This document shows, in pieces, positions 2,221 through 16,898 of a stretch of DNA of 39,290 nt. Below the pieces are notes generated by a model. It was not told the DNA's origin, did not search any database, and worked only from the letters and a program-made list of their open reading frames with translations. Location: NCBI GenBank assembly GCA_017413085.1, contig JAFPVC010000046.1, forward strand, positions 1 through 39,290, given 5' to 3'. The first letter of the stretch is position 1, and every line of letters starts with the position of its first letter. The DNA is from Prevotella sp. Its GTDB lineage: Bacteria > Bacteroidota > Bacteroidia > Bacteroidales > Bacteroidaceae. The position numbers and the translations under genes were made by a program.

Positions 2221-2251
2221 CAAAATTAATTCTTTTTCAACAAACTACCAA
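2221..2251 (-). promoter_or_regulatory. promoter of the DUF234 ATPase
   Basis: On the minus strand the -33 TTG (2249-2251) is 20 bases from -7 TAATTTTG (2221-2228), the Bacteroidetes housekeeping pattern. The predicted transcript start is about 18 bases before the ATG. The repeat array begins directly upstream of the -33 box. Confidence 0.75.
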
Positions 2252-2348
2252 CGATTTTTATCCAAATGTGACCAAAAAGTAGAGATTTGGATGAAAATGA
2301 GGCGATTTTTGTCCAAATGTGGGCAAAAAGTAGAGATTTGGACAAAAA
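2252..2348. repeat. two tandem long inverted repeats at the ATPase promoter
   Basis: Two 51-bp-period copies begin CGATTTTT at 2252 and 2303. Each holds an inverted repeat around a near-identical 17-base core (gtg..caaaaagtagag). Arms are ATCCAAAT/ATTTGGAT (2260-2267, 2285-2292) in copy 1 and TTTTTGTCCAAAT/ATTTGGACAAAAA (2306-2318, 2336-2348) in copy 2. The outermost core pair changes from A-T to G-C on both sides, so symmetry is preserved. Operator or element end; the position next to the -33 box favours an operator. Confidence 0.85.
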
Positions 2349-2785
2349 TACCACAAGGTGAGAAGCCTTTGAAGGATTGAAAAATTGAAGGGTTGAAGGA
2401 TTGAAAAGTGAAACTCGCTACGCTCAAAGTGAAGAGTGAAAAATACAAGTTACGGTTTGACTGCATGGGAGTTTTGACCTTTGACCCTATACTTTTCACC
2501 TCCCGAATGCGGATTGCGCAGATTGAACGGATTGGCTGCGCACAAGGATTCTCTACTACGAATTATACGAATTGCACGAATTTAATAATTAATGAAAGAT
2601 TATATGGGCATTACATGGGTATTATATGTTAAAGTCAACGAACACTGATTATGCAAAAAAAATTATTAAAAAAAATAATTTGGTTGGCAGGGTGGTGTGA
2701 AAGTCGCTGATGATGCAGTAATCATTATAGGCAAAATGCACAATTTACAATTCTTAAATCCCTGAAACAGAGCTGATAACCACTC
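2349..2785. other. spacer between two ATPase genes; low-complexity repeats, no gene seen
   Basis: The stretch carries GAAGGATTGAAAAATTGAAG (2371-2390), identical over 20 bases to the repeat after the pectate-lyase gene, then a GTGAAA/GTGAAGAG-rich run and an ACGAATTATACGAATTGCACGAATTT run near 2557-2582. Short open frames here have no plausible protein character. It looks like a landing zone of Bacteroidales interspersed repeats between two accessory genes. Confidence 0.6.
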
Positions 2786-2829
2786 ACACAAGTTTGTGTT
2801 ACACAAACTTGTGTTACACAAACTTGTGT
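2786..2829. repeat. three tandem 14-bp near-palindromes at the second ATPase promoter
   Basis: ACACAAGTTTGTGT (2786-2799), ACACAAACTTGTGT (2801-2814) and ACACAAACTTGTGT (2816-2829) follow each other with single-T spacers, a 15-bp period. The first is the reverse complement of the other two. The last unit contains the -33 TTG of the downstream promoter, so a bound protein would compete with or contact RNA polymerase. Confidence 0.9.
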
Positions 2830-2854
2830 ATATGAAAAAAACTTTGTAACTTTG
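2824..2854 (+). promoter_or_regulatory. promoter of the second solitary ATPase
   Basis: TTG (2824-2826), 20 bases, TAACTTTG (2847-2854). The -33 element is inside the third palindromic repeat. Predicted leader about 34 bases. Confidence 0.75.
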
Positions 2855-2891
2855 CCACTGAAAACATTATCTACCAAAAAACATTAAGAGT

Positions 2892-4022
2892 ATGAAAAAG
2901 CCATTTGTTTTTGGTGTAGCCGTTGGCAACGACCATTTTATAGGCAGGGAAAAAGAAATTGAGCGACTGTCAGCAAATTTCAAGTATGGTGTAAACACAA
3001 TACTGATTTCTCCGCGACGCATCGGCAAGACCTCACTCGTCAACCATGTAGCGAACAGCGTAGAAAGCAGCGAATTGCATGTCGTGAAGATGGATATATT
3101 CTCTTGTCGCAGCGAATATGATTTCTACAACATGTTTGCCGCTGCTGTATTGCAGCAAACATCGTCGCGTATCGAGGAATGGCGACAGACAGCACAGGAG
3201 TTTCTCACACGAATCACTCCACGACTGTCCTTCTCGCCAGAACCAATGCAGGAATACAGCGTATCGTTGGGCATTACTCCAAAGACGCATACACCTGAGC
3301 AGATACTCAACCTGCCTGAAATCATCGCACAACGCAAGGGATGGCACATAGTAGTGTGCATAGACGAATTTCAGCAGATAGGTGATTTCCCGGATACACT
3401 GACCGTACAGAAACGCCTTCGCACCGTATGGCAGCACCAGCAGAATGTTTCCTATTGTCTATACGGAAGCAAGCGCAACATGCTCAGTTCGCTGTTTCAG
3501 CAGCGCAGCAAACCGTTTTACAAGTTTGGCTCCATGATGCAGCTTGGAGTCATCCCTACGGAAGACTGGCTGCCGTATCTATGCAGTCGCTTCGCTAATG
3601 AGGGAAAGATGCTGTCAGAAGACATGGCAGCAGAGATATGCAATAGGGTGGAGAACCATTCATCTTATGTGCAGCAACTGGCTTTTTACACGTTGCTTGC
3701 CACCAATGACGCAGCCACGCCTGCCGACATAGACCAAGCATACAGTGACCTGCTTGACGAGAACACCTCGCTGTTTTTAGAAAAGACGGAGCATCTCACC
3801 ACCTATCAGCTCAATTTCCTACGCGCCATCATTGACGGTGTACACACAGATTTCGGTACTGCCAGAGTACGTGAGGAATACAACCTTGGTTCTCCTTCAA
3901 ACATTCCCCGCATACGTGCTGCCCTGCTGGAACGTGAACTGGTGGAAGACCTGGAGTCTGGTATTCATATTTCTGACCCGGTGCTTAAAGTATGGCTTCG
4001 TCAGCGTTTCCGCTGGGCGTGA
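2892..4022 (+). CDS. solitary P-loop ATPase (archaeal-type ATPase family), no nuclease tail
   Basis: A 376-aa ATPase. 'FIGREKEIERL' at 17-27 is the family's N-terminal signature. Walker A is SPRRIGKTS (about 40-48), Walker B VVCIDE with D158-E159, and sensor-1 is CLYGSKRNM. The C-terminus is winged-helix-like (SPSNIPRIRAALLERELVE...ISDPVLKVWLRQRF) and the protein ends there, without the D...ExK domain of the other two ATPases in the window. It is therefore probably an ATP-driven DNA- or protein-remodelling switch of unknown role. It is monocistronic, with its own promoter overlapped by three palindromes. The stop lies three bases from the convergent radical SAM gene, with no terminator between. 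Confidence 0.88.
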   Translation: MKKPFVFGVAVGNDHFIGREKEIERLSANFKYGVNTILISPRRIGKTSLVNHVANSVESSELHVVKMDIFSCRSEYDFYNMFAAAVLQQTSSRIEEWRQTAQEFLTRITPRLSFSPEPMQEYSVSLGITPKTHTPEQILNLPEIIAQRKGWHIVVCIDEFQQIGDFPDTLTVQKRLRTVWQHQQNVSYCLYGSKRNMLSSLFQQRSKPFYKFGSMMQLGVIPTEDWLPYLCSRFANEGKMLSEDMAAEICNRVENHSSYVQQLAFYTLLATNDAATPADIDQAYSDLLDENTSLFLEKTEHLTTYQLNFLRAIIDGVHTDFGTARVREEYNLGSPSNIPRIRAALLERELVEDLESGIHISDPVLKVWLRQRFRWA

Positions 4023-4025
4023 GTG

Positions 4026-4811
4026 TCAGTAGCTTGCCTGACACGGCACACCTGCCTCGCGCTCTACCCTGTCGCGTATGGCGTTGAGCACGTCGGGTGT
4101 AGCCTTTCGCAAGCCAGTGGCAGGTGTCTCGCGGTCAATGGTGTAAATCATCACCTGCTGCGGACGTATGCGCTGCAGTGCCTCAATCCACGGCTTCAGG
4201 AAGTGCTCGGAGGTATTGCTTACGTCTGTTCCGTCGGCCATAGTGCCGTCCATAAACATGGTTTGTATAATCACGTGACCATTGAACTGACAGAGGTCAT
4301 TCACAACATCCTGCACGTTGTAAGCAGGACTGACAGGACGATCCACTCGGTTGATATAGTCAGCATCTACAGTGTCGAGTTTCTGTATGTTGTTGTCAAC
4401 GCGCATCAGTGCCTCGCGCACATCCTGACGGTGAATAAAGGTGGCATTGCTCAACACCGACACCTTGGCCTCTGGAAAATAACGGTCACGCACCTCTATG
4501 GTGTCACCTATTATTGCGGCGAAATCGGGGTGGCCCGTGGGTTCGCCATTACCGGCAAAGGTTATCACATCGAGCGGCTGTCCCTGCTCATGGCGCTGGC
4601 GCAGCACATCGGTGAGACACTGGCGAACTTCATCACGTGTCGGCCGCTTCTCCTTCGGTCGGAAGTCGGCATTGAATCCACATTCACAGTATACGCAGTC
4701 GAATGAACACACCTTGCCGTCGCCCGGCATGAGGTTGACGCCGAGCGACACGCCGAGACGGCGGCTGTGCACTGGGCCGAATATTGGTGATGGATATATT
4801 ATCGTAGACAT
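4026..4811 (-). CDS. radical SAM protein
   Basis: A 261-aa protein. CSFDCVYC (C35, C39, C42) is the CxxxCxxC site for the [4Fe-4S] cluster that cleaves S-adenosylmethionine. 'ITFAGNGEPTGHPDF' just after it is the glycine-rich SAM-binding strand, and 'VSVLSNATF' and 'KLDTVDADY' fit the later strands of the partial TIM barrel. No extra C-terminal Fe-S domain is present. Substrate unknown. The start codon overlaps the 3' end of the upstream phosphatase-family gene by 13 bases, so the two are translationally linked in the rhomboid operon. Confidence 0.88.
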   Translation of the reverse strand: MSTIIYPSPIFGPVHSRRLGVSLGVNLMPGDGKVCSFDCVYCECGFNADFRPKEKRPTRDEVRQCLTDVLRQRHEQGQPLDVITFAGNGEPTGHPDFAAIIGDTIEVRDRYFPEAKVSVLSNATFIHRQDVREALMRVDNNIQKLDTVDADYINRVDRPVSPAYNVQDVVNDLCQFNGHVIIQTMFMDGTMADGTDVSNTSEHFLKPWIEALQRIRPQQVMIYTIDRETPATGLRKATPDVLNAIRDRVEREAGVPCQASY

Positions 4812-5911
4812 AGTTGGCTGATTATGGGGAAATGGTCAGACATGTCGATTGAACGATCTACCGTGCATGCACGCGGTTCAAAATGCTGTGAGCATAGTAT
4901 GTTGTCTATCCTGGCACGCATTCCGAAGTGGCTGTAACTGTAGCCGGGACCGAAAGCCGTCTGGCGGAAACAGTCGGTCAGTGAGCCGCGCTCGTCAAGT
5001 GCTGAGATTATCGTGTTGTAGGTATATGATTGCGGGATGTCGTTGAAGTCGCCGCAAACTATCATGCGCTCCCCGCTGTGGCTACGCAGGAATTCTGCCA
5101 CAGCCTCAGCCTGTCCAGCCCTTTTCTTGGTTGCGCGCAGTATCTTGCCCATAATGGTGCGCGACGTGTTCTTGATTTCATGCCTTTGACTGCGCTGGCC
5201 GTGCATCATCTCGCCAAACTCCTCGCGGTCGCTCATGCTGAAGCCCATGGTCTGCAAGTGACACGACACCACTATTATTTCCTGTCCCTTGTAGTTTATC
5301 CAGAAGGCACCCGAGGTATTGGCCTTTGTCTCGTATTCTATGAGTTGGTGGCGCACTATTGGATAACGGCTTACTATCATTGCGACGGTACCGCTGTAGC
5401 CGTGTATCGTGTCAACGTAGGGATAGTCCTTTTTCAATATACTGTCAATTTCTTTTGAGGCATATTCATCGTAGGTGGACTCCTGCAAGCACACCACATC
5501 AACCGGACGTGACCCTATGTATTCTATTATTTTGTTGGGGTGCATGTTGCGGTATTCGCCCTTGTGATCCCGTGCCCAGTTATACGTATTGTAGCTCATC
5601 ACGGTAAACGTGCTGTCGGTAAACTGTGCCTCGCGGGTCAGTCCTGACAGATGCACGGGGCAGTAGAGCGTAACCGGCTGATAGGCTGCCAGCAGGAACA
5701 GGAACGGAATGCCGAGGTAGCGTTTCTTCATCAGTGCACATACCGCGAGGCATGCCACCGTGAGCACAAGGAACACGGGAAAACCATAGCCGGCGAGCGA
5801 CAGCCACGACCAACTGTTGGGATTGAGAAATCCTGCATAGCCGGTAAACAGCAGTCCGAGACCAGAGAGCAGCGATGCCGCCAGTATGGTTTTGGATAAT
5901 ATCTTCTTCAT
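4799..5911 (-). CDS. membrane-anchored endonuclease/exonuclease/phosphatase family protein
   Basis: A 370-aa protein with about three hydrophobic segments in the first 85 residues, then an EEP (DNase I-like) domain. Signature pieces are FTVMSYNTYNW (about 102-112), VVCLQEST with metal-binding E144, VVSCHLQT, CGDFNDIPQS and the closing MSDHFPI. The family hydrolyses phosphodiesters or phosphomonoesters; the membrane anchor suggests action at or outside the inner membrane. The start is 5 bases after the rhomboid stop and the end overlaps the radical SAM start, so it is the middle gene of a three-gene operon. Substrate cannot be read from the sequence. Confidence 0.88.
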   Translation of the reverse strand: MKKILSKTILAASLLSGLGLLFTGYAGFLNPNSWSWLSLAGYGFPVFLVLTVACLAVCALMKKRYLGIPFLFLLAAYQPVTLYCPVHLSGLTREAQFTDSTFTVMSYNTYNWARDHKGEYRNMHPNKIIEYIGSRPVDVVCLQESTYDEYASKEIDSILKKDYPYVDTIHGYSGTVAMIVSRYPIVRHQLIEYETKANTSGAFWINYKGQEIIVVSCHLQTMGFSMSDREEFGEMMHGQRSQRHEIKNTSRTIMGKILRATKKRAGQAEAVAEFLRSHSGERMIVCGDFNDIPQSYTYNTIISALDERGSLTDCFRQTAFGPGYSYSHFGMRARIDNILCSQHFEPRACTVDRSIDMSDHFPIISQLCLR

Positions 5912-5916
5912 AGTCT

Positions 5917-6873
5917 TTACTTTCTCTGGTCAAAAAGCGTTTTCTTCTCCTCCTCTGTGAGCGAGGCATAACCCGACTGGCGAATCTTGTCGAGTATGGC
6001 ATCTATCTTTGCCTCACGCTCACTTTTCTCCTTGCTCTTTTTTTCGTTATACTCCCAGTCCTGCTGATGTTTCGAGGTAGTGTTCTTGTGACCATAGTTC
6101 AGGTCTTCGTCAACGTCATTGTCTTTGTCAAGGTGCAGCCAACTGCGTATACGTCCCAGTATGGTCTTTGAACTGTCCTTTACCTCATAGCCGTCCCAGC
6201 CATTGAACCCAGGCTTCGTCCTGCGCCATATCCTGAGCAGTATCCAGCCGAAGAGCATACCGCCCAGATGCGCCACATGGGCCACACCGTCGCCGTTCTG
6301 CGCCAGAGCCAGTGCCACCTCTATGGCGGCATAGCCTATCACAAACCACTTTGCCTTGATAGGCACGGGCAGTGGAAATATAAACATGCGCTCCTCAGGA
6401 TATGTCATGCCGAAGGCAAGCAATATGCCATAGATGCTACCCGACGCGCCCACGGTAGTCAGGGCATTCAGTGCCATGCGGTCTGGCATCGAGAGGTTCA
6501 TCATGTCAGAGAGCGTGGCCCCCTGGTCGGCCACCATCAGGTAGACCTGAACAAACTGTGAAATCTCCTGACAGAGTGCCGCACCCAGTCCGCACACCAT
6601 ATAATATATAAGGAAACGTTTTTGTCCGAATGTGCGTTCTATCACGCCGCCGAACATCCACAGGGCAAACATGTTGAAGAAGATATGCTCAAACGATGCG
6701 TGCATAAACATATACGTCAGCACTTGGTATATGCGGAAGTCTGCGGCCTGAAAGTAATGCAGTCCGAAGATGTCGTTAAGGTCTATGCCGCGCCCACCCA
6801 AAACAAGGTAGGCGAGATAGCATATCACATTGATAATAAGCAGGTTTTTTGTAATTACTGGTATTGATCGCAT
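5917..6873 (-). CDS. rhomboid-family intramembrane serine protease
   Basis: A 318-aa integral membrane protease. The catalytic serine is in GASGSIYG (S144) and the histidine in HVAHLGGM (about H202). 'HASFEHIFFNMFALW' (58-72) is the family's HxxxxHxxxNM-type motif preceding TM helices. The six-helix core ends near residue 215. A hydrophilic, charged tail of about 100 residues (KEKSEREAKIDAILDKIRQ) follows and ends in a helical motif 'YASLTEEEKKTLF', common in Bacteroidales rhomboids. The start was placed at MRSIPVITK because an earlier in-frame ATG lies upstream of the predicted promoter -7 box. It heads the operon with the EEP and radical SAM genes. Confidence 0.92.
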   Translation of the reverse strand: MRSIPVITKNLLIINVICYLAYLVLGGRGIDLNDIFGLHYFQAADFRIYQVLTYMFMHASFEHIFFNMFALWMFGGVIERTFGQKRFLIYYMVCGLGAALCQEISQFVQVYLMVADQGATLSDMMNLSMPDRMALNALTTVGASGSIYGILLAFGMTYPEERMFIFPLPVPIKAKWFVIGYAAIEVALALAQNGDGVAHVAHLGGMLFGWILLRIWRRTKPGFNGWDGYEVKDSSKTILGRIRSWLHLDKDNDVDEDLNYGHKNTTSKHQQDWEYNEKKSKEKSEREAKIDAILDKIRQSGYASLTEEEKKTLFDQRK

Positions 6874-6908
6874 AATACTTATTTTCTTCTTTTGATTAAA
6901 ATTCTCTG

Positions 6909-6916
6909 CAAAAGTA
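6909..6916 (-). promoter_or_regulatory. -7 box of the rhomboid operon
   Basis: TACTTTTG on the minus strand matches TAnnTTTG and lies 36 bases before the chosen ATG. I do not see a clean TTG at the usual 20-base distance. It rules out translation starting at 6933. Confidence 0.5.
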
Positions 6917-6965
6917 CAAAAAAACTTGCACATTACCTTATTTTCTTTTGAAATTTGAGTTTTTT

Positions 6966-6996
6966 TTGGTAGTTTGCTCTTTTTTTCTTAACTTTG
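6966..6996 (+). promoter_or_regulatory. promoter of the pectate-lyase-like gene
   Basis: TTG (6966-6968), 20 bases, TAACTTTG (6989-6996). It fixes the transcript start near 7000, so the in-frame TTG at 6994 cannot be the translation start. Confidence 0.8.
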
Positions 6997-7044
6997 CAAA
7001 ATAAACCTTACGAAAACAAAACTAATAAGATAATCAATGAACTA

Positions 7045-10000
7045 ATGAGACTTAAAACAAAATTCTTCTCCCTGCTGATGGCAGGACTAATGAGCATGAC
7101 GGCTGCACACGCCGACGATCTTCTCGCCTTCCCCGGAGCGGCAGGTTGGGGACGCTTCGCCAAGGGCGCACGCGCTACATCTTCTGCAACAGTATATCAT
7201 GTTACCAATCTCAACGACTCTGGCACGGGTTCTCTGCGCGATGCCGTGAGCCAGCCTAACCGCATCGTGGTATTCGATGTCTCGGGCGTTATCCAAATCT
7301 CAAGCCGCATGACTTTTGCCAAGAATCTCTACGTGGCAGGACAGACCGCACCGGGCGAGGGTATCACCGTATATGGTGACGGCTGCTCTTTCTCGGGTTC
7401 CGACAATATCATCGTGCGCTACATACGCTGGCGCATGGGACACAACGGTACCAGCGGCAAGGACTGTGCAGGCATCGCCAACGGACAGAACATGATTTTC
7501 GACCACTGTTCTTTTTCATGGGGTCTTGATGAGACATTCTCCATCAACCCCGACGGCAAGGGTTCGCAGCCTATGTATATCACCCTGCAGAACAACATCT
7601 TTGGTCAGGGACTGATGAGCCACTCTGCCGGCGGACTGATTCAGAGCGACTCCATCACGCTCTATCGCAACCTCTACATTGACAACTCTACCCGCAACAA
7701 CAAAATCAAGGGCACCTGTCAGTATGTGAACAACGTGGTCTACAACTGGAAGAACGGCTGCGTAATCCTTGGCGGCGACAGTGAGGGAACAAGTTATGTA
7801 AACATAGAGTCCAACCTCTTTGTCAACGGCCCTGCTAACGGCGGCAGCGGACTTGGCGGCGGAAACAGCCTTTTCCACTTCTATGGCGAGGACAACTGGC
7901 AGGATTCTAACATGGACGGTGTATTTGCTCCATCGCTCGTGACTACAAACGGTGGTGGCGACTTGGTAAGCACTCCTTATCCTTATCCATACCTTGAGAA
8001 ATACAACGGCGACGAACTGCTCACCATGAACATTCCTACCGTGGGTGCATCACTGCCATACCGCGATCAGACCGACTGCTTCCTGATTGACGAACTCATG
8101 TCGTATGGCACGCTGGGTTCTATCATCTCCAACGAAGAGGGCCTGCCTATCGGCTCGCCAAGCACATGGGCATGGTATACCGGCGTAAAGAAGCAGGACA
8201 CCGACGGCGATGGCATGCCCGACGCATGGGAGGAAGCCAACGGCACCAACCCGGCGGTCGCTGATGCCACGGTAACGGCTGCCAACGGATATCTCAACAT
8301 CGAAAACTACATCAACGGCATAACAGCTGATGACCGCGACTACTTCCTGCGCGCGCCTATCACTCTTGAGGCTGCGAAATCTACTTCGTCAACCATTACT
8401 CTTACATGGCGCGACTATACATACGAGGAGGAAGGCTTCATCATTGAGATGGCAGCCGACGGCAGCAGCGACTATCAGGAAATAGAGCGCGTCAGTGCAA
8501 ACAGTACGTCATACGTCGTGAACAACCTGCAGGACGGCACGTTCTATAATCTGCGCGTTTGTGCATACGGCAGCAACGAAGGTGAAGAGGTTAAGTCTGA
8601 CTATGCGAAAGTTTATGCAAGCACACGTCCAATAGAGGTGGGACTGGTTGATATCGACTCCTACGAGGCTACGCTTACATTGGCAGAAGGACAGACTGCA
8701 TGGAATTACGAGACAGACGCTTGGTTGGAGAACCGCGCTTTCATTGATGGCGACAACGTGCTTCTGAATACTGATGCAGTACAGACGTTAGCAGTGACGG
8801 GCGCGCCAAAACCTGCAGCAGTAGTAGCTAATGGCACAGGCACGCTGACACTGAACGGAGAAATAAGTGGAGAAGGCTCTGTAAATAAAGGCAACACCGG
8901 CACACTGGTACTCAATGGCAAGAGCTCTTACACTGGCGCTACCGTCAACCACGACGGCACGATAGAGTTCAGTGCAATTGCCGACGGTGGTATGTCCTCA
9001 TCCATCGGTGCATCAAGAAACTTTGCCCAGAACTGGATATTCGACGGCGGTACATTCAGCTACACGGGAGCTGCCGCAGCAACTGACCGCAATGCGCAGA
9101 TTCGCAGCAACTCAACACTGAAGACTGCAAACACTCTGACTCTCAACGGCACGTTTGAGGGTTCTGGCCAACTGACATTCGAAGGTCCCGGCCAGTTCAC
9201 CATCGGCACAACTAAATTCTTCGGATACACTGGCGCAACAAGGATTAAGAGCGGCACGGTATACCTGTCAACCACCGACATTTCAAAGAACGGCATAGGT
9301 TCTTCATCAAAGCTTATACTGGCTGGCGGAACGCTCAAAACCAAGGGTGAGTCAAGTGGCTACGAAACCTATTCATTCCCCATCGAGGTGGAGGAAGGCA
9401 CATACAGCTATTTCGCACCAAACCGCAACTGCTCAACCAAGTGCGTAATAACAGGTGCCGGCACGTTTGAATACGTGATACCTTACCTGCGTGAGTATTT
9501 TGATCCGAAGATGGAGAACTTTACCGGAAAGATAGTTGCCAACGGTGTCAGCACCGATGCCTGGGGTTCGCTTTTCCTCTCGGAACACAGTTTCAATATG
9601 CCAACGACGCAGGTTGAACTCAAGGGCAATGCCAAGATGTGTATGTGGGAAACCAACGGCAATGGATTTATAGGAGGTCTGTCAGGCGACGCCGGCACTT
9701 ATCTCAATGCTTCATCGAAGCAAACTAACACTTCTGTATGTAACTGGACAATCGGAGGTTCTAACTCTGATGAGACCTTCCATGGCACCATTACTAACAA
9801 TTGCTGTGCAAAAGGCTATAACTCTACCACAAACAACATCACCAAGGTGGGAACTGGCCTTTGGCGACTGACAGGCAACAATACATACGTAGGAACAACT
9901 AACGTCAATGCCGGCACTCTCATCATTGACGGTAAGAACAGCGGCACTGGTGCATACTACGTGAAGAGCGAGGCTACACTCAAAGGCGAGGGTACTATTG

Positions 10001-11046
10001 CAGGACCTGTCACCGTGCAGAACGGAGGCACCATCGTCGCGGGCGACACCATAACAAGCGGAAAGAAACTCACTCTCACAACGCTGACTATGCAGAGCGG
10101 TTCGACAATGGTAGTACCAGTAGTCAATAATGATCAGAAGTCATACGCACAGAACAACTTCGCCGTGACAACTCTCAACGTGCAGAATGGCGCTGTGCTA
10201 GAGATTGATATGACCAACGTCACTGTGCCGTTTGAGAAAAATAATTATATTCAGGTGTTTGCCAAGGTTCCTACAACTGCAAGCGGTTCGTTCACCATCT
10301 CACCGGCATCACCAGGCGATGGCCTCGTATGGGACACTTCTACCCTGTTCACCGATGGCAAGCTGTATATCCTGGCTGACGGCGAAGACCGTCCAAAGCC
10401 GAAGACCTACAGCCGCAACGTGCTTTACTCTTGGGAGTCGCCTGATGGTACTGCTATTGAGACTGGCGGCATTGCATCTATGCAGAATGCTACGTCCTCT
10501 GCCACAAACCGCGTGAACTACAGGAACACCGTAAACAGTGTTGACTATTACACCATCTCACTGCACGGCAGATCGACAAACATGAACAACAGCCCGTCAA
10601 ACAATGCCACATTCATTCAGATCGACCTTGACGAGCCTATCGAGACTGGCGACTCCGTATGGATTACTGCATACGTGACGAAGAGCACTGCTGCAGAGTC
10701 TTCTCCATACATACTGAGCGGCACATGTGTCGTTGACGACGGTGTTTCTTTCAACAACATCTACAGTGGAAGCCTTAAGCCCAATACCCGTGGCTATGCA
10801 CTGACGGCTGGTGCCAACGGAGAGAAGGTTATAAAGATGACGCGTGGACAGAAAATAGGAACGAATCTCTTTATTACAAAACTCCAGGTTACCCGCTGGG
10901 CTGAAGATATTCCTGATGCTGTAAAAGTGGCTAAGGCAGATGCAGCCAAGGCTGCGGATGGTGCCACATACAATGCAGGTGGACAGCGCATAAGCGACAA
11001 CAGCCGCGGACTGCTAATTCAGAGCGGTAAGAAATACCTTAAGTAA
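7045..11046 (+). CDS. secreted multidomain pectate-lyase-like protein with autotransporter-type beta-strand repeats
   Basis: A 1333-aa protein starting at the ATG after the promoter. It has a signal peptide (MRLKTKFFSLLMAGLM...AHA) and then 'AFPGAAGWGRFAKGAR', the hallmark start of Bacteroidetes PL1-type lyases. The right-handed beta-helix runs to about residue 380 (VTNLNDSGTGSLRDAV, AGQTAPGEGITVYGDG, IFDHCSFSWGLDE). The usual 'SRNPR' strand reads STRNNKIKG, so the catalytic arginine may be replaced. Next come a calcium-type DTDGDGMPDAWEE repeat (about 385), a fibronectin-III-like domain (about 430-530), long beta-rich stretches with passenger repeats (GTLVLNGKSSYTG, GLWRLTGNNTYVGTTNVNAGTL), and the tail 'YNAGGQRI...SGKKYLK', probably for type IX-like export. 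Pectin is the inferred substrate. No SusC/D genes are nearby. Confidence 0.85.
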   Translation: MRLKTKFFSLLMAGLMSMTAAHADDLLAFPGAAGWGRFAKGARATSSATVYHVTNLNDSGTGSLRDAVSQPNRIVVFDVSGVIQISSRMTFAKNLYVAGQTAPGEGITVYGDGCSFSGSDNIIVRYIRWRMGHNGTSGKDCAGIANGQNMIFDHCSFSWGLDETFSINPDGKGSQPMYITLQNNIFGQGLMSHSAGGLIQSDSITLYRNLYIDNSTRNNKIKGTCQYVNNVVYNWKNGCVILGGDSEGTSYVNIESNLFVNGPANGGSGLGGGNSLFHFYGEDNWQDSNMDGVFAPSLVTTNGGGDLVSTPYPYPYLEKYNGDELLTMNIPTVGASLPYRDQTDCFLIDELMSYGTLGSIISNEEGLPIGSPSTWAWYTGVKKQDTDGDGMPDAWEEANGTNPAVADATVTAANGYLNIENYINGITADDRDYFLRAPITLEAAKSTSSTITLTWRDYTYEEEGFIIEMAADGSSDYQEIERVSANSTSYVVNNLQDGTFYNLRVCAYGSNEGEEVKSDYAKVYASTRPIEVGLVDIDSYEATLTLAEGQTAWNYETDAWLENRAFIDGDNVLLNTDAVQTLAVTGAPKPAAVVANGTGTLTLNGEISGEGSVNKGNTGTLVLNGKSSYTGATVNHDGTIEFSAIADGGMSSSIGASRNFAQNWIFDGGTFSYTGAAAATDRNAQIRSNSTLKTANTLTLNGTFEGSGQLTFEGPGQFTIGTTKFFGYTGATRIKSGTVYLSTTDISKNGIGSSSKLILAGGTLKTKGESSGYETYSFPIEVEEGTYSYFAPNRNCSTKCVITGAGTFEYVIPYLREYFDPKMENFTGKIVANGVSTDAWGSLFLSEHSFNMPTTQVELKGNAKMCMWETNGNGFIGGLSGDAGTYLNASSKQTNTSVCNWTIGGSNSDETFHGTITNNCCAKGYNSTTNNITKVGTGLWRLTGNNTYVGTTNVNAGTLIIDGKNSGTGAYYVKSEATLKGEGTIAGPVTVQNGGTIVAGDTITSGKKLTLTTLTMQSGSTMVVPVVNNDQKSYAQNNFAVTTLNVQNGAVLEIDMTNVTVPFEKNNYIQVFAKVPTTASGSFTISPASPGDGLVWDTSTLFTDGKLYILADGEDRPKPKTYSRNVLYSWESPDGTAIETGGIASMQNATSSATNRVNYRNTVNSVDYYTISLHGRSTNMNNSPSNNATFIQIDLDEPIETGDSVWITAYVTKSTAAESSPYILSGTCVVDDGVSFNNIYSGSLKPNTRGYALTAGANGEKVIKMTRGQKIGTNLFITKLQVTRWAEDIPDAVKVAKADAAKAADGATYNAGGQRISDNSRGLLIQSGKKYLK

Positions 11047-11058
11047 TATTTAAGAATT

Positions 11059-11160
11059 GAAGGATTGAAAAATTGAAGTTCGCTAAATCAAGAAACTTCA
11101 ATCTTTCAATCCTTCAACTCTTAAATCCTTCAATTTTTCAACTTTTCAATTCTTCAATTT
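11059..11160. repeat. TTGAAGGATTG-type interspersed repeat forming a long hairpin
   Basis: A 22-base arm (11059-11080) and its reverse complement (11094-11115) match with one mismatch around a 13-base loop; further TTCAATTTTTCAA-type units follow up to 11160. It may terminate the upstream gene, although there is no clean T-tract. The first 20 bases recur exactly at 2371-2390. Confidence 0.75.
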
Positions 11161-11168
11161 TACACAGG

Positions 11169-11750
11169 ATGAAATTAATTTATTTTCATGGTTTCGGTTC
11201 ATCGGGCGCAAGCGGCACAGTGGAGACACTGCGCCACCTCATGCCTGACGACGAGGTTATAGCACCCGACATACCCATCGACCCACTCGATGCCCTACCC
11301 TACCTGCGCGAATTCTGCGAGCAGGAGCAGCCCGACATCATACTGGGAACATCAATGGGCGGCATGTATGCACACCAGATGCACGGATTCAAGCGCATCT
11401 GCGTGAACCCTGCAGTCAACATGTCAACAATGAGCGGTGTGATGAAAACGGGGGAACATAAGTTCTTCAACCGACGCAAGGACAACCAGAAGACATTTCG
11501 CGTCACGCGCGAACTGATACAGCACCACAATCAGGTGGAGCGCCAGCAGTTTAAGAACCTTACCGACGAGGACATACAGCACGTCTGGGGACTCTTCGGC
11601 ATCAACGACAAGACTTGCAACACCTACGGTCTGTTCAGCAAGCACTATCCGCAGTGCAGCCGCTTCGATGGCGAGCACCAGCTCAACGAGAAGGTAATAC
11701 GCAAGGTGGTGCTGCCGCTGATAGATGAGATAATGCACAATGCATTATGA
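11169..11750 (+). CDS. YqiA/UPF0227-type alpha/beta-hydrolase (esterase)
   Basis: A 193-aa protein. 'LIYFHGFGSSGAS' forms the first strand and oxyanion region, GTSMGGMYA (S62) is the nucleophile elbow, and 'FDGEHQLNEKV' near the C-terminus supplies the histidine. This compact layout is that of the YqiA/YcfP family of small esterases. The start was taken at MKLIYFHG: the in-frame ATG at 11073 would add 32 residues encoded entirely by the TTCAATCCTTCAA repeat. The last codons (HNAL) lie inside an ATGCATTATGAATT repeat, and the stop is two bases from the convergent phosphatase stop. Confidence 0.85.
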   Translation: MKLIYFHGFGSSGASGTVETLRHLMPDDEVIAPDIPIDPLDALPYLREFCEQEQPDIILGTSMGGMYAHQMHGFKRICVNPAVNMSTMSGVMKTGEHKFFNRRKDNQKTFRVTRELIQHHNQVERQQFKNLTDEDIQHVWGLFGINDKTCNTYGLFSKHYPQCSRFDGEHQLNEKVIRKVVLPLIDEIMHNAL

Positions 11751-11774
11751 ATTATGCATTATGAATTATGAATT
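11736..11774. repeat. ATGCATTATGAATT low-complexity repeat between convergent stops
   Basis: Iterated TGCATTATGAATTATG covers the last codons and stops of both convergent genes. The same unit is part of the imperfect hairpin at 15239-15345. Confidence 0.7.
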
Positions 11775-12219
11775 CCAACAGTGCCCTGCAACCGTCGAGG
11801 CAGTCGCGCCAGGTGGCATTGAAGTTACCCGTATACCACGGGTCTGCCACGTCGTTCGGACGGTCGGTATAATCCAGCAGCAGGTGTATCTTGCCGTCAG
11901 GGTCGCCGCCACACATGCGCTGCATGTTGCGCAGGTTATAGCGATCCATGCCTATCAGTAGGTCATAATGGTCATAATCACGGCGCGTCAGCTGACGCGC
12001 CGTTTTTCCTTCGCACGATATGCCGTGCTCAGCCAGTTTGCGGCGTGCCGGTGGATAAACGGGGTTGCCCAGTTCCTCGGTGCTCGTGGCGGCAGATGCT
12101 ATCTCAAAACTGTCTGCCAGACCAGCATCAGCCACAAGGCGTTTCATTACAAACTCGGCCATCGGACTGCGGCAGATGTTGCCGTGGCACACAAAAAGTA
12201 TCTTATGTTTTTCCTTCAT
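11752..12219 (-). CDS. low-molecular-weight protein tyrosine phosphatase
   Basis: A 155-aa enzyme of the usual family length. The P-loop CHGNICRS has nucleophile C11 and R17; the general acid is D126 in 'DVADPWYTG', the family's DP motif. It dephosphorylates phosphotyrosine in proteins and small substrates in the cytosol. A consensus promoter lies about 50 bases upstream, back to back with the promoter of the TrpB gene. The final residues (IIHNA) are encoded by an interspersed repeat, as are those of the facing gene. Confidence 0.95.
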   Translation of the reverse strand: MKEKHKILFVCHGNICRSPMAEFVMKRLVADAGLADSFEIASAATSTEELGNPVYPPARRKLAEHGISCEGKTARQLTRRDYDHYDLLIGMDRYNLRNMQRMCGGDPDGKIHLLLDYTDRPNDVADPWYTGNFNATWRDCLDGCRALLEFIIHNA

Positions 12220-12270
12220 CTGTAAGATAATGTTACGCGGTAACGTTCGTCAAGTTCGTCAACTTATCGG

Positions 12271-12301
12271 CAAAGTTACGAAAAAAACGAGAGAAATGCA
12301 A
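12271..12301 (-). promoter_or_regulatory. promoter of the tyrosine phosphatase gene
   Basis: On the minus strand TTG (12299-12301), 20 bases, TAACTTTG (12271-12278). The -33 box is 17 bases from the -33 box of the divergent trpB promoter. Confidence 0.8.
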
Positions 12302-12317
12302 AAGAAAAATACTTTTA

Positions 12318-12349
12318 TTTGTCTATGTCAGAAAATATTATTAATTTTG
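12318..12349 (+). promoter_or_regulatory. promoter of the TrpB2 gene
   Basis: TTTG (12318-12321), 20 bases, TAATTTTG (12342-12349). Predicted leader of about 43 bases before the ATG, with no obvious attenuator or Trp codons in it. Confidence 0.8.
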
Positions 12350-12396
12350 CGTCTTAATGGTAATACTGAACTAATTAGTAAACAATAACACAATAC

Positions 12397-13767
12397 ATGG
12401 AACAGAAAATCCCCTACAAAATCTACCTCACCGAGGATGAGATTCCCACACAGTGGTACAACGTGCGTGCCGACATGAAGAACAAACCGGCTCCGTTAAT
12501 CAATCCTGCCACACTGCAGCCGCTCACAGAAGCAGACCTTGCGCCTATCTTCTGCGAAGAACTGAACAAACAGGAACTCGACAACGACACTCCTTACTTC
12601 GACATCCCTGAGGAGATACAGAAATTCTACCGCATGTACCGCCCTTCACCATTGGTACGCGCATATTTCCTTGAGAAGGCACTGGGCACTCCTGCCAAGA
12701 TATACTATAAGTTCGAGGGCAACAATACCTCTGGCTCACACAAGCTCAACTCTTCCATTGCACAGGCTTACTATGCAAAGAAGCAGGGACTGAAGGGCGT
12801 GACCACCGAGACTGGCGCAGGCCAGTGGGGCACGGCACTGTCAATGGCATGTGCATACTTCGGACTCGACTGTCAGGTGTATATGGTGAAATGCTCTTAT
12901 GAGCAGAAGCCATTCCGCCGCGAGGTGATGCGCACATACGGTGCCAACGTCACTCCGTCACCATCAATGACTACGGAGGTGGGCCGCAAGATTCTCTCTG
13001 AGCATCCTGACACTACAGGTTCTCTGGGCTGTGCCATCTCTGAGGCTGTCGAGGCAGCCGTGAAGCAGGACGGCTACCGCTACGTGCTGGGTTCAGTGCT
13101 CAACCAGGTGCTGCTCCATCAGACCATCATCGGTCTGGAGGCTCAGAAGGCCATGAAGAAGTATGACATCAAGCCAGACGTCATCATCGGCTGCGCCGGC
13201 GGCGGTTCAAACCTTGGCGGTCTGGTAAGTCCGTTCATCGGTGAGATGCTGCGCGGCGAGGCTAAGTATCAGGTTATTGCCGTAGAGCCAGCATCATGCC
13301 CAAGCTTCACACGCGGCAAGTATGCCTACGACTTCTGCGACACCGGCATGATATGCCCACTGGCAAAGATGTATACACTGGGCAGCCAGTTCATGCCAAG
13401 CGCCAACCATGCCGGCGGCCTGCGTTTCCACGGCATGAGCCCTATCCTGTCACAGCTCTATCACGACGGTCTCTTCGAGGCACGCGCCGTGGAGCAGACA
13501 GAGGTGTTCGCCGCTGCAGAGCAGTTTGCACGCGTTGAGGGCATCCTGCCAGCACCAGAGTCAAGCCACGCCATCCGCGTAGCCATCGACGAGGCTCTGA
13601 AGTGCAAGGAGACAGGCGAGGAGAAGACCATCATGTTCGGTCTCACCGGCACTGGTTACTTCGACCTCTACGCCTACGAGCAGTTCAACAACGGCACTAT
13701 GACCGACGTCATCCCAAGCGACGATACCATCGCCGAGGCTCTGGCAAAACTGCCGAAAGTGGAATAA
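12397..13767 (+). CDS. trpB: tryptophan synthase beta chain, TrpB2 type
   Basis: A 456-aa PLP enzyme that joins indole and serine to make tryptophan. The PLP lysine is K116 in SGSHKLNSS and the phosphate loop is GGGSNLGG (about 268-275). 'TETGAGQWGTALSMAC' is the beta-replacement motif. Its length and the N-terminal extension (about 75 residues before 'YRPSPLVRA') identify the TrpB2 branch, which typically works without stable TrpA contact and may salvage indole. No other trp gene is near. It has its own promoter and a strong terminator 25 bases downstream, so it is transcribed alone. Confidence 0.95.
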   Translation: MEQKIPYKIYLTEDEIPTQWYNVRADMKNKPAPLINPATLQPLTEADLAPIFCEELNKQELDNDTPYFDIPEEIQKFYRMYRPSPLVRAYFLEKALGTPAKIYYKFEGNNTSGSHKLNSSIAQAYYAKKQGLKGVTTETGAGQWGTALSMACAYFGLDCQVYMVKCSYEQKPFRREVMRTYGANVTPSPSMTTEVGRKILSEHPDTTGSLGCAISEAVEAAVKQDGYRYVLGSVLNQVLLHQTIIGLEAQKAMKKYDIKPDVIIGCAGGGSNLGGLVSPFIGEMLRGEAKYQVIAVEPASCPSFTRGKYAYDFCDTGMICPLAKMYTLGSQFMPSANHAGGLRFHGMSPILSQLYHDGLFEARAVEQTEVFAAAEQFARVEGILPAPESSHAIRVAIDEALKCKETGEEKTIMFGLTGTGYFDLYAYEQFNNGTMTDVIPSDDTIAEALAKLPKVE

Positions 13768-13792
13768 ACTTGAAAGTTTTTTAATAACAAAT

Positions 13793-13835
13793 CGACAAGC
13801 ACCTGACCGCTATGCAGTCAGGTGCTTGTCGTTTT
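13793..13835 (+). terminator. trpB intrinsic terminator
   Basis: CGACAAGCACCTGAC (13793-13807) and GTCAGGTGCTTGTCG (13817-13831) form a perfect 15-bp stem with a 9-base loop, followed by TTTT. Confidence 0.92.
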
Positions 13836-13859
13836 ATTACAGGGTGCGCATGTCCCCAA

Positions 13860-14858
13860 TTATATTCTGAAAATCTTGTTCATCATAGGAATACGCATCA
13901 ACACGAATGATATTCCCAGTGAAAGAGACATTACCACGAACAGCGTTATCAGCGGTGCACAGGCCAGACCGTCATAATGATGGTGGGGCAGATGTCCGAT
14001 TATAAAACTGTGAATGGCATAGACTGGCAGGAAAAGGTTTGACATCTCCTTTATGACAAGTCTGGCATGTTTGTTCTTGATTTCCAGCCCCTTGATGTAT
14101 ATGAACATACACGTGACAAGCAACAGCACAGGTACTGAGGAATAGAACAGAGAAGCAAATTCAGTGCCGATGACTTTGTCGAAGACCTCTTTGTAGGCCA
14201 GGGCTATGCAGAACAAGAAACAGACTAAGACACCATGAATCTTCACATCCTTGATGCGTGCCAACATTCCCCCGAGCAGGAAATAGAATATCGTATACCA
14301 TATCCTGAATATCGCAAGGATGTCATATTCGAAAAGATGTCCGGAAAACTTGTTTGTCAATGAGTTTGAGAAGAAGAAGCACTGCACTATCAGCAATAGC
14401 ACTGTCACGTAAGCATACTGCTTGAAATACCGGTGATAAAGCACCGACAGCCAGGGAACCAGCAGATAGCACATCATTATTGCGGTAAAATACCAGAACA
14501 CATAGAACCGTCCCGTTCCAATGAACGCATGAGGGTATTCATAAATCACGCTGAAGAAGTCGTCTTTATGAAATAGTACGCGGAACAAGACAAACACCGA
14601 TACCACGATAGTAACGAAGCGCACTATTCCCCATATCTTGCGCATGACATATCTGTAGTTGTTTGTCTTGCGCGGTATCAGGAGATATCCGCTGACCATG
14701 AAAAACAGAGGCATGGAGACCATACCCATGTCATAGAGAATGTCTGCCAGTCCGGTTTTTCCGGGAATGATATAGTATATCATTGAATGTAGTGCCATTA
14801 CTCCCATCATGGCTATTATCTTTATCAAATCAATGGAGTAGTCTCTTTCTTTTGTCAT
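13860..14858 (-). CDS. acyltransferase family 3 membrane protein
   Basis: A 332-aa protein with about ten hydrophobic helices, of the acyltransferase-3 family (PF01757). The N-terminal 'YSIDLIKIIAMMGVMALHS' carries the family's conserved D10 and H24, 'MPLFFMVSGYLL' follows, and a basic loop (PRKTNNYRYVMRK) comes next. Members transfer acetyl or succinyl groups to sugars of surface polysaccharide, peptidoglycan or glycans; the acceptor here cannot be inferred since no glycan gene is adjacent. It is monocistronic, with a consensus promoter about 75 bases upstream and a perfect 35-bp palindrome just beyond the -33 box. Low GC compared with neighbours suggests acquisition. Confidence 0.9.
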   Translation of the reverse strand: MTKERDYSIDLIKIIAMMGVMALHSMIYYIIPGKTGLADILYDMGMVSMPLFFMVSGYLLIPRKTNNYRYVMRKIWGIVRFVTIVVSVFVLFRVLFHKDDFFSVIYEYPHAFIGTGRFYVFWYFTAIMMCYLLVPWLSVLYHRYFKQYAYVTVLLLIVQCFFFSNSLTNKFSGHLFEYDILAIFRIWYTIFYFLLGGMLARIKDVKIHGVLVCFLFCIALAYKEVFDKVIGTEFASLFYSSVPVLLLVTCMFIYIKGLEIKNKHARLVIKEMSNLFLPVYAIHSFIIGHLPHHHYDGLACAPLITLFVVMSLSLGISFVLMRIPMMNKIFRI

Positions 14859-14931
14859 GTGCTTTTAGCGTGGGTTCCATATTTTCCCACAAAATAGTAA
14901 CTGGAATACAATATAATATTTTGACCTGTCA

Positions 14932-14962
14932 CAAAGGTAATGATTTTATTCCGAACGCCCAA
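14932..14962 (-). promoter_or_regulatory. promoter of the acyltransferase gene
   Basis: On the minus strand TTG (14960-14962), 20 bases, TACCTTTG (14932-14939). A perfect palindrome begins 8 bases upstream of the -33 element. Confidence 0.75.
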
Positions 14963-14969
14963 AGAAAAT

Positions 14970-15004
14970 GCTGAAAATCTGAAGTAGTACTTCAGATTTT
15001 CAGC
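14970..15004. repeat. perfect 35-bp palindrome upstream of the acyltransferase promoter
   Basis: GCTGAAAATCTGAAGTA (14970-14986), one central G, then the exact complement TACTTCAGATTTTCAGC (14988-15004). With a one-base centre it is better read as a DNA-protein site than as an RNA hairpin. A plus-strand -7-like TAACTTTG (15008-15015) lies directly on its other side. Confidence 0.85.
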
Positions 15005-15101
15005 GATTAACTTTGTATTTAACTTGCGATTCCTTGCGATAGAAATCACCAAAGTGAATTTTGGTTGCAAATACGCCAAAATTTCGATGTTTTGCTATAT
15101 C

Positions 15102-15145
15102 ACTGTGATACAGCAATATACACAACAAAAGAAAAGAATTGCCGT
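15102..15145. repeat. degenerate direct repeat, copy 1
   Basis: ACTGTGATACAGCAATATA followed by an AACAAAAGAAAAG run. It matches 15580-15621 (ACTGTAGTACAGCGATATA, then ACAACAAAAAAAG) over about 40 bases with a few changes and a 2-base gap. Confidence 0.6.
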
Positions 15146-15155
15146 TTCCTCTTAT

Positions 15156-15218
15156 TGTAATCAGGCCCTAATTACAGTGTAATCAAGCCCTAATTACCCA
15201 CTAATCGGGTGCTGATTA
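15156..15218. repeat. array of three short palindromes
   Basis: Two 22-bp-period units, TGTAATCAGGCCCTAATTACA (15156-15176) with arms TGTAAT/ATTACA, and a variant at 15178-15198. A third inverted repeat TAATC...GATTA follows at 15202-15218. They resemble the promoter palindrome arrays of the three ATPase genes, but no ATPase starts here. Confidence 0.65.
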
Positions 15219-15238
15219 TGGGGTAAAAAGGCCCAAAT

Positions 15239-15345
15239 TAATGCACAATTCATAATGCACAATTCATAATCATTACGCATAATTCGCTTTTTTTGTTGCG
15301 TTTTACTTGATTATGCATTATGCATTATGAATTGTTAATTATTTT
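15239..15345. repeat. AATTCATAATGCAC repeat, long imperfect hairpin
   Basis: AATGCACAATTCATAATGCACAATTCATAAT-type units on the left face ATTATGCATTATGCATTATGAATT on the right, giving a long A/T-rich stem with few mismatches. It belongs to the same family as the repeat at 11736-11774. Confidence 0.65.
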
Positions 15346-15577
15346 AACCTCTATTTTGAGTGCTAAATCCATGCGTCATTTGTTCACAAATTTCTGTCTT
15401 AATATTTGTCAGTATCAGAAATAATATGGGCACTGTAAATGCAACAGAATCTATCCCCTCAGCTATCTCTATTGTTTTATTTGCATAGACAATATCGGTA
15501 CTGTAAGACCGTCTAACAAGAATAGCTATCCGTTTATAATCTGATTGCAAACCGAGAAGGAAGTCATACCAATTCTT
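15344..15577 (-). pseudogene. open frame without start codon, possible gene debris
   Basis: The minus-strand frame is open for 77 codons after an upstream stop, and contains no ATG or GTG start. It begins KNWYDFLLGLQSDYKRIAIL and then has a hydrophobic stretch (VAFTVPILFLILT). I do not recognise a family. Its position between two copies of a degenerate direct repeat suggests a remnant of an element or a truncated gene. It could also be a chance frame in AT-rich DNA. Confidence 0.25.
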
Positions 15578-15579
15578 TT

Positions 15580-15621
15580 ACTGTAGTACAGCGATATAGA
15601 CGACAACAAAAAAAGATTTGT
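15580..15621. repeat. degenerate direct repeat, copy 2
   Basis: Second copy of the unit at 15102-15145, including the small palindrome CTGTAGTACAG. It lies just past the 3' end of the third ATPase gene. Confidence 0.6.
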
Positions 15622-15666
15622 TGGTACGAATTAAGCAAATTCTATGGTTATCTACCTATATAATGC

Positions 15667-16785
15667 TCATACGAAACTCCAAAAGTTGTCTGGTGTGATG
15701 ACCTCAAATGAAGAATCTGTGTAGGTGTTGGCGAACTGGGATGGGGCAGCAGGCTGTTTCCTGCTATTCCATTTGAATTCAAAGGCGCGCATTTTTCCGT
15801 CTTCCATTTCTATGAGATCTATCTCCTTCTGCTCATGTGTGCGCCAGAAATACATTTGGGCGTAACTGTTGCTGTATGCATTGCGCTTTAGTCGTTCACT
15901 TATCATCAGATTCTCCCACAGTGCACCAGCATCAGTGCGTGCATCTAATGGCGCGAAGTTCGATAGTACGGCATTGCGTATGCCATTGTCATAGAAATAT
16001 ACCTTCTTCCCTTTTTTTATCTCATTGCGCAGGTTGCGGCTGAACGACTCCAACCGGAAAACCACGAAGCACTTCTCAAGCAAACCGATATAGTTTTCTA
16101 CGGTTTCCTTATCTATGCCCAGAAGGTTTGACAATTCATTGTATGACACTTCCGAACCCAGTTGCAAAGCCAGAGCACGCACCAATTTCTGCAAGATTTC
16201 AGGTTTCTTGATACCGCGATATGCGAAAATATCCTTATAGAGATAGTTGTTTGTCAGCGTCATCAACATGCGCTTTGCATTGCCTGGCGTGGTCACCACC
16301 TCGGGATAAAGTCCGTATATCAGCCTTTGTTCAAGCAGACGCGTTTCCTCTTTCATTGAGTTGTGCTCGCTTAATTCTCTCAGTGACAATGGGAAAATAT
16401 GATGCTCCAAAAGACGACCTGTTGCTGGTTCGCAGATGTCGTCAGACAGTTCAAGTGATGAGGAGCCCGTAACAATCACTTGTGTGTTTAGTTTTAGATC
16501 ACCAATTTTTTTCAGAGTCAGTCCGATGTTCCTCACACGCTGTGCCTCATCTATAAATACCATGTCATATCCTGTCAGCATTGCTCGCAATTCCGTTGAA
16601 GTCTTATTCTCGAGCAATGCTGCGTCGTCATAGTCATCACAATTCAGCCGCAAACATTTTACGTCTTGATTTTGCAACATGTCAATAAGCGTTGTCTTGC
16701 CTACCTGGCGGGCACCAAGCAGTACTATGACCTTTTTATAAGCCATGTCCGACAATATATTCTTCTCTATAATCCTTTTAATCAT
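15667..16785 (-). CDS. solitary AAA_14/DUF4143 ATPase
   Basis: A 372-aa protein with the AAA_14 (PF13173) plus DUF4143 (PF13635) layout. Walker A is GARQVGKT (24-31), Walker B MVFIDE with D79-E80, sensor-1 VIVTGSSSLELS. 'LIYGLYPEVVTTPGN' starts the second half, followed by a winged-helix-like segment (SYNELSNLLGIDKETVENYIGLLEKCFVV). The C-terminus has D323 and E336-x-K338 (EIDLIE...AFEFK), the same D...ExK spacing as in the DUF234 ATPase. The family is abundant and multi-copy in Bacteroidales; function unknown, with DNA cleavage or defence/addiction roles only inferred. It is transcribed alone from a promoter whose -33 box lies inside a pair of inverted repeats. Confidence 0.92.
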   Translation of the reverse strand: MIKRIIEKNILSDMAYKKVIVLLGARQVGKTTLIDMLQNQDVKCLRLNCDDYDDAALLENKTSTELRAMLTGYDMVFIDEAQRVRNIGLTLKKIGDLKLNTQVIVTGSSSLELSDDICEPATGRLLEHHIFPLSLRELSEHNSMKEETRLLEQRLIYGLYPEVVTTPGNAKRMLMTLTNNYLYKDIFAYRGIKKPEILQKLVRALALQLGSEVSYNELSNLLGIDKETVENYIGLLEKCFVVFRLESFSRNLRNEIKKGKKVYFYDNGIRNAVLSNFAPLDARTDAGALWENLMISERLKRNAYSNSYAQMYFWRTHEQKEIDLIEMEDGKMRAFEFKWNSRKQPAAPSQFANTYTDSSFEVITPDNFWSFV

Positions 16786-16812
16786 AATATTATGATATAT
16801 TTATTATGTCTG

Positions 16813-16843
16813 CAAAGTTAAGAAAAAAAAATCAAACCGCCAA
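16813..16843 (-). promoter_or_regulatory. promoter of the DUF4143 ATPase
   Basis: On the minus strand TTG (16841-16843), 20 bases, TAACTTTG (16813-16820). The -33 TTG is part of the first inverted repeat of the array; predicted leader about 24 bases. Confidence 0.75.
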
Positions 16844-16898
16844 ATTTACACTGAATTTAGCGGTTACAACCGCCAATTTTGGTATAAATTTGGCGGTT
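16835..16898. repeat. two tandem 31-bp inverted repeats at the DUF4143 ATPase promoter
   Basis: Unit 1 has arms AACCGCCAAATT (16835-16846) and AATTTAGCGGTT (16854-16865). Unit 2 has AACCGCCAATTT (16868-16879) and AATTTGGCGGTT (16887-16898). Both are 31 bp with a 33-bp period; each has one mismatch between arms. The spacers differ, so the arms are what is conserved. Confidence 0.88.

Follow-up and report, generated by a model that had tools for sequence, protein, structure and literature searches.

The stretch of DNA analysed here (39,290 nucleotides (nt), hereafter the window) is contig C39 of a Prevotella sp. genome of 62 contigs (2.83 Mb, estimated 79% complete). It carries three genes for ATPases of different subfamilies, each with an array of tandem repeats lying at its promoter (Table 1). 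Judged from the list of open reading frames alone the three genes look solitary, i.e., none has a close co-directional partner. The PADLOC profile for PDC-S27 covers the whole length of the 769-2199 product, and the PDC-S01 profile likewise covers that of 15667-16785. The gene between them (hereafter the middle gene) matches no PADLOC family, PDC-S01 and PDC-S27 included (best score 19 bits), and has no nuclease domain in Pfam. Its family shows a weak, distant sequence match to SSO1545 (2fna) and to 2qen, and the C-terminal stretch of its protein is read as a predicted winged helix with a recognition helix at about residues 333-346. Ten further ATPases of the genome were scanned with PADLOC, of which eight matched (L001 as PDC-S27, seven as PDC-S01) and two, L004 and L009, matched neither family. 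According to the accessible text of the sources, PDC-S01 and PDC-S27 are described as combining ATPase and PD-(D/E)XK domains, with their prevalence also given (PMC12988326, PMC13356809), and a defence role is proposed for both, validation being pending for most candidates of this kind (PMC12988326). Defence is a proposal in print for only two of the three families, PDC-S01 and PDC-S27.

Table 1. ATPase genes of the window with their promoters and repeat arrays, and one array from elsewhere in the genome.
Feature	Position	Strand	Description	Evidence
ATPase gene, PDC-S27	769-2199	-	ATPase_2 (PF01637), sub-threshold DUF234 match	Pfam; PADLOC 625 bits, residues 1-475
Promoter of 769-2199	2221-2251	-	TAATTTTG 2221-2228, spacer 20 nt, TTG 2249-2251	
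Array of 769-2199	2252-2349	-	two 47-nt units, 2252-2298 and 2303-2349	
Array of 2892-4022	2786-2829	+	three 14-nt palindromes ACACAARYTTGTGT, period 15	
Promoter of 2892-4022	2824-2854	+	TTG 2824-2826, spacer 20 nt, TAACTTTG 2847-2854	
ATPase gene, middle gene	2892-4022	+	ATPase_2 (PF01637)	Pfam 34.1 bits vs cut-off 33.2
ATPase gene, PDC-S01	15667-16785	-	AAA_14 (PF13173) and DUF4143 (PF13635)	Pfam; PADLOC 530 bits, residues 1-372
Promoter of 15667-16785	16813-16843	-	TAACTTTG 16813-16820, spacer 20 nt, TTG 16841-16843	
Array of 15667-16785	16835-16898	-	two 31-nt inverted-repeat units AACCGCCAAATT..AATTTGGCGGTT, period 33	
Array of L008 (own-genome locus)			CCACAAGCTTGTGT	

The initial annotation had ascribed to all three genes a promoter of the form TTG-N20-TAnnTTTG, with repeats touching or overlapping its -33 element, and both points are confirmed in the sequence. 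The -33 TTG of the middle gene sits within the third and last palindrome of its array, and that of the PDC-S01 gene lies inside the last repeat of an array whose units (16835-16865 and 16868-16898) are 77% alike. At 769-2199 the array adjoins the TTG, and its units, 89% alike, consist of inverted 14-nt arms around TCCAAAT..ATTTGGA.

Such arrays are the rule for ATPase genes of this genome. Upstream regions were scored for inverted and direct repeats against dinucleotide shuffles, in 18 genes with PF01637 or PF13173 and in 146 control genes drawn from 20 stretches of 20 kb of the same genome. In 17 of the 18 ATPase genes, vs 34 of the 146 controls, a repeat array (z ≥ 5) lies no more than 170 nt from the start (Fisher p = 4e-9). 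The 18 genes were kept after L007, L010, L026, L029 and L030 had been omitted by reading as other AAA-type proteins, L011 also standing outside the set; for L008 and L022 an inner ATG was set by hand as the start. At z ≥ 4, 47 of the 146 controls score too. Since this generic score is weak alone, the main family, that of the middle gene, was assessed with a score specific to the period.

Within the genome the class of array tracks the protein subfamily. Period-15 palindromes precede L005, L006 and L008, which encode the 376-amino-acid PF01637 type. The four AAA_14 genes of about 450 amino acids have direct repeats with a common GAAAA core, spaced 32-33 nt or double that distance, and long inverted repeats around a CCAAA core, of period 32-33 in two cases, precede the three of 375 amino acids. 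The repeat sequences had been described as unrelated from gene to gene, which does not hold within a protein subfamily, where core and spacing are common.

The family of the middle gene provides the largest sample. Matches occur in 73 of 151 genomes of the taxonomic family and, at E ≤ 1e-60, in 72 of 393 genomes of the order; the matches listed in the genome collection include at least 80 loci, from Bacteroidales and Fibrobacter, with six more on viral contigs. We scored 113 upstream regions, comprising 26 of 30 family-search loci, 85 of 86 collection and viral loci, L005 and L008, with the partial loci L085, L091-L093 and L214 excluded. A period-15 array of 14-nt palindromes (score ≥ 11) was present in 108 of these. 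Counting each of the 110 distinct proteins once (L177, L181 and L213 duplicate others), 105 had the array within 220 nt upstream. Such an array was absent from all 146 control genes; it occurred in 4 of 339 shuffles and, among 159 neighbouring genes within the collection loci, in 2. In a further order-wide set, 59 of 64 relatives had the array; 64 of 68 loci were read, L342 (internal stops) being omitted and L333, L355, L371 and L376 giving no frame. The relatives in Fibrobacter genomes (L139, L140, L154, L156, L159) are 53-54% identical to the middle gene product and have arrays of their own, although that of L154 is weak and the register of L139 was set by hand, which suggests transfer.

Turning to the PDC-S01 type, PF13635 is present in 33 of 61 genomes across the phylum. 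Among 26 readable loci (29 were tried, and the own-genome locus L231 was excluded), an array was scored in 20 at z ≥ 4 and in 12 at z ≥ 5, compared at z ≥ 4 with 2 of 24 neighbouring genes with a non-coding upstream region (2 of 33 unfiltered) and with the 47 of 146 control genes from the window's genome. Relatives at the level of the taxonomic family have inverted or direct repeats upstream (read by eye and unscored, in a set of 26 of the 30 loci). Outside Bacteroidota, 13 plasmid loci were hand-picked from the search matches; five reach z ≥ 4, with repeats of period 14 in Vibrio, period 22 in Novosphingobium, Roseivivax and Collinsella, and one inverted repeat in Aminobacter, and the other eight, Thermus and Acinetobacter among them, fall below this level. 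The repeats 5' of the plasmid ATPase genes L306, L309, L313 and L316 (Vibrio, Novosphingobium, Roseivivax and Collinsella), with periods of 14 or 22, are iteron-like.

Chance or ordinary promoter repeats, as an explanation of the arrays, are rejected by the comparisons with control genes, shuffles and neighbouring genes. The idea would have failed if most homologues lacked repeats or random genes carried them equally often, and the own-genome, family and phylum counts did not refute it. The arrays singled out at the three genes of the window are real, but they are not peculiar to these genes, two of which belong to the widespread PDC-S27 and PDC-S01 families.

The arrays of the middle-gene family usually keep a fixed register with the promoter, measured in 103 genes for which both array and -7 box were located. 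The last palindrome ends 16-17 nt 5' of TAnnTTTG in 22 of 35 genes of the ACACAA type, and 17 nt 5' of it in 27 of 33 genes of a type that has two copies and a GG-T-CC joint. In 26 of 35 genes of the TAATAA type the distance is 2 nt, which places the last palindrome one slot of 15 nt further on. TTG is present in the palindrome at the -33 slot in 54 of 55 cases, and in 25 of 33 in the TAATAA type, whose flanking copies have it in 9 of 33 and 3 of 28. Only the TAATAA type is informative on this point, because TTG tends to be present in all copies of the other types. Overall a palindrome supplies the -33 TTG in 79 of the 103 genes, and an operator that shares its DNA with the -33 box in this way argues for repression by occlusion.

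Furthermore, the half-sites of the arrays differ between relatives, with HCACAA, CCACAA, TAAYAA, TAACCA, ATACCA, TTACAA and AAATCA among the variants, and the copies within one array change together between clades. These changes are coupled to the recognition helix, as seen in 163 pairs of protein and site (L089, L094, L095, L215 and L382 were dropped for an array score below 9). At half-site positions 4-5, K340 goes with CC (20/23), R340 with CA (71/87) and never with CC, and I340 with TA (33/34); at position 2, S336 goes with C (64/67), A336 with A (59/63), and R, H, N or G at 336 with T (17/18). In plain mutual information the clade structure prevailed; partial Mantel tests came next, and then a tree-simulated null, the latter because clades inflate such residue-base tables. 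This null comes from 300 simulations of the half-site states along a tree built solely from the ATPase domain (residues 1-288). Of 372 columns, S336 then ranked first for position 2 (z 6.2) and R340 first for position 4 (z 4.8), and the 14 columns of the helix exceeded the remaining ones (p = 7e-4). In the partial Mantel test, from which L089, L094, L095 and L215 were dropped as from the independent-pair set, the helix window ranked 1 of 365 within the R/K class. The proposed co-variation of repeats and winged helix is borne out in the middle-gene family, at residues 336 and 340 under the tree null; for PDC-S01 it was followed by eye only, the helix-turn-helix of the relatives seeming to differ in step with the repeats. 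Residues 122-139 of the middle gene product, in the ATPase domain, are also strongly coupled to the operator sequence; they may touch DNA as a second contact, or simply mark a clade.

Two of the arrays are close to private within the genome. With at most one mismatch, ACACAARYTTGTGT has nine sites (a backwards control pattern has three), of which three make up its own array and two that of a paralog with 53% identity; the others are an orphan pair on contig C36 and two singles. A pattern for one unit of the CCGCCAAATT (PDC-S01) array has that array as its sole genome match, the second unit not being fitted. The orphan tandem pair, ACACAAGTATGTGT/ACACAAACTTGTGT (L126:1486-1514; G000:C36:20450-20478), has flanks that resemble the 2786-2829 array and no ATPase within the stretch seen, and is perhaps a relic of a lost copy, or a second target. 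The hairpin AAGGTGTGAATCCAACTAATGGGTTCACACCTTA, at 695-728 of the window, recurs 5' of this orphan array in L126.

Taking this together, we consider it likely, with a probability of a little over three in four, that each of these ATPases binds the array at its own gene and represses the promoter there. Each array would be the operator of the gene 3' of it, to which the predicted winged-helix domain of the ATPase would bind, probably as a multimer on the two or three evenly spaced sites. Neighbouring sites would be filled together and the promoter shut, RNA polymerase being blocked because an array site overlaps or abuts the -33 box. The outcome would be autorepression (rather than activation) with private specificity, and therefore many paralogs in one genome could avoid cross-regulation. 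ATP may have a role in this control, co-variation of operator and helix may extend to the other families, and the ATPase may have a further job once expressed. From what the initial annotation had put forward, i.e., that each ATPase or a linked partner recognises its own array, for self-repression, copy-specific immunity or an addiction-like switch, self-repression by the ATPase itself emerges as the likeliest, and the other two functions stay conjectural. The co-variation involves the ATPase itself, and the genes look solitary; both points make a linked partner less likely.

Several observations weigh against autorepression by the ATPase. L015 has no array, the sole miss among the 18 own-genome ATPases, and in the distant 376-amino-acid clade the array was found in just 17 of 34 genes at a score of 12 (vs 3 of 146 controls and 5 of 170 shuffles), the start being set by a motif which 6 of 40 loci lacked. 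Some arrays, e.g., that of L004, sit 3' of the -7 box, where a roadblock mode would be required. The register itself is favoured by the procedure, since among several -7 candidates the one nearest to the expected gaps was chosen. Coupling is also not confined to the helix: half-site positions 1, 3, 5 and 6 peak outside it (K149, L332, K194, D165), high values outside it are found at V172, L268 and G164 (h2), W226, Y259 and V260 (h3) and K194 and Q173 (h5), and in the whole-set Mantel test the residue windows starting at 122-128 outrank it. In the class without R340 or K340 the helix ranks only 43-254 of 365 in the Mantel test. The independent-pair tests fall below significance, with too few independent changes and those in the opposite direction almost absent.

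A broader version of autorepression would join PDC-S01, PDC-S27 and the ATPase_2 family of the middle gene into one self-addressing class in which the array is also a sensor; this is a tentative idea that we think rather unlikely as it stands. The address would be residues 335-340 against the half-site, and would permit the coexistence of paralogs. Loss or titration of the array-bound ATPase, e.g., by a phage that takes over or degrades the chromosome, would then release a burst of the ATPase or nuclease.

An alternative to autorepression, which we regard as improbable, is that the array is an iteron-like or Orc1/Cdc6-like target onto which the ATPase loads in order to open, tether or cut DNA, promoter control being a by-product. 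In their spacings (about 14-15, 22 and 32-33 nt) the repeats are similar to iterons, period-22 repeats precede plasmid-borne PDC-S01 relatives (Roseivivax, Novosphingobium and Collinsella), and two other plasmid copies adjoin repC or repA. The distant similarity of the middle-gene family to SSO1545 points the same way, and the coupled ATPase-domain region (residue windows starting at 122-128) could be a second DNA contact of such a loader. In the accessible text of a study of the plant nucleotide-binding leucine-rich repeat (NLR) protein Rx1, NTPase domains of this kind are related to Cdc6/Orc1 (PMC4599002), which we count for this alternative. However, the register in the middle-gene family is tied to the core promoter, with TTG kept in the -33 slot, and an origin or tether would need neither.

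Less probable still is a selfish mobile or addiction unit, in which gene and array would travel jointly and the array would mark self for immunity or maintenance. The patchy spread of the family over the genomes of the taxonomic family and the order, with decayed copies in family genomes, is what such a unit might leave, as are the Fibrobacter relatives, the copies on contigs of a viral collection with their own arrays (L210, L211, L212) and the orphan array without an ATPase. In 0 of 14 genus relatives does the ATPase lie within 1.5 kb of the neighbouring radical S-adenosylmethionine (SAM) gene. This last count bears little weight, as gene order in the genus is too fluid for an empty-site comparison, and three exact array patterns have zero matches in the viral contigs, so that phage decoy arrays of these types are rejected, which also speaks against the unit. 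Least credible is that a separate host regulator binds the arrays or that they are terminators, attenuators or neutral dispersed repeats: 34 of the 146 controls do reach z ≥ 5, mostly with terminator-like or simple repeats by eye, but the two arrays examined are near-private, and array copies change together between clades, tracking the ATPase's own recognition helix.

Autorepression by the ATPase would place these arrays among known kinds of element. The controller proteins of toxin-antitoxin and restriction-modification systems are autoregulated through operators that are palindromes over their own promoter, with a specificity private to the system. The arrays of the window are alike in being private palindromes over the gene's own promoter, with protein binding predicted here, and unlike in that the regulator would be the ATPase itself, no partner gene being seen. 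Plasmid Rep proteins bind evenly phased iterons beside their own gene, and here too evenly phased repeats lie beside the gene of the (predicted) binding protein; unlike iterons, the arrays of the window families are at chromosomal promoters and overlap the -33 box. According to the accessible part of its description, IniR of mycobacteria is an AAA+ ATPase resembling SSO1545; it has a DNA-binding domain and binds a promoter (PMC5760070), although, unlike the ATPases of the window, it induces another operon and has a MalT-like domain. The feature is real and general in very common ATPase families, and its kind, the autoregulatory operator, is familiar; new are the family, the scale and the readable specificity. 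No description of promoter arrays for these ATPases, and no functional proposal for the middle-gene family, was found in the literature searched, the coverage of which leaves out most subscription papers and all bioRxiv preprints. In PMC12988326, wording on promoters, operators, palindromes, repeats or autoregulation occurs only in reference titles.

According to the accessible text of PMC12988326, PDC-S01 ranks fourth in frequency among the defence families of prokaryotes, and a private promoter operator gives a concrete handle on the possible control of genes of this type. For most members of the middle-gene family the DNA itself reveals the predicted site, and the 163 natural pairs are a resource for a recognition code. 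If autorepression is true, it would explain the coexistence of many paralogs per genome, and defence assays without the native promoter may mislead. Apart from the arrays, simple repeats of the TTGAAGGATTGAA type lie at 2369-2407 of the window, and also 5' of other genes of the same genome (L040, L048).

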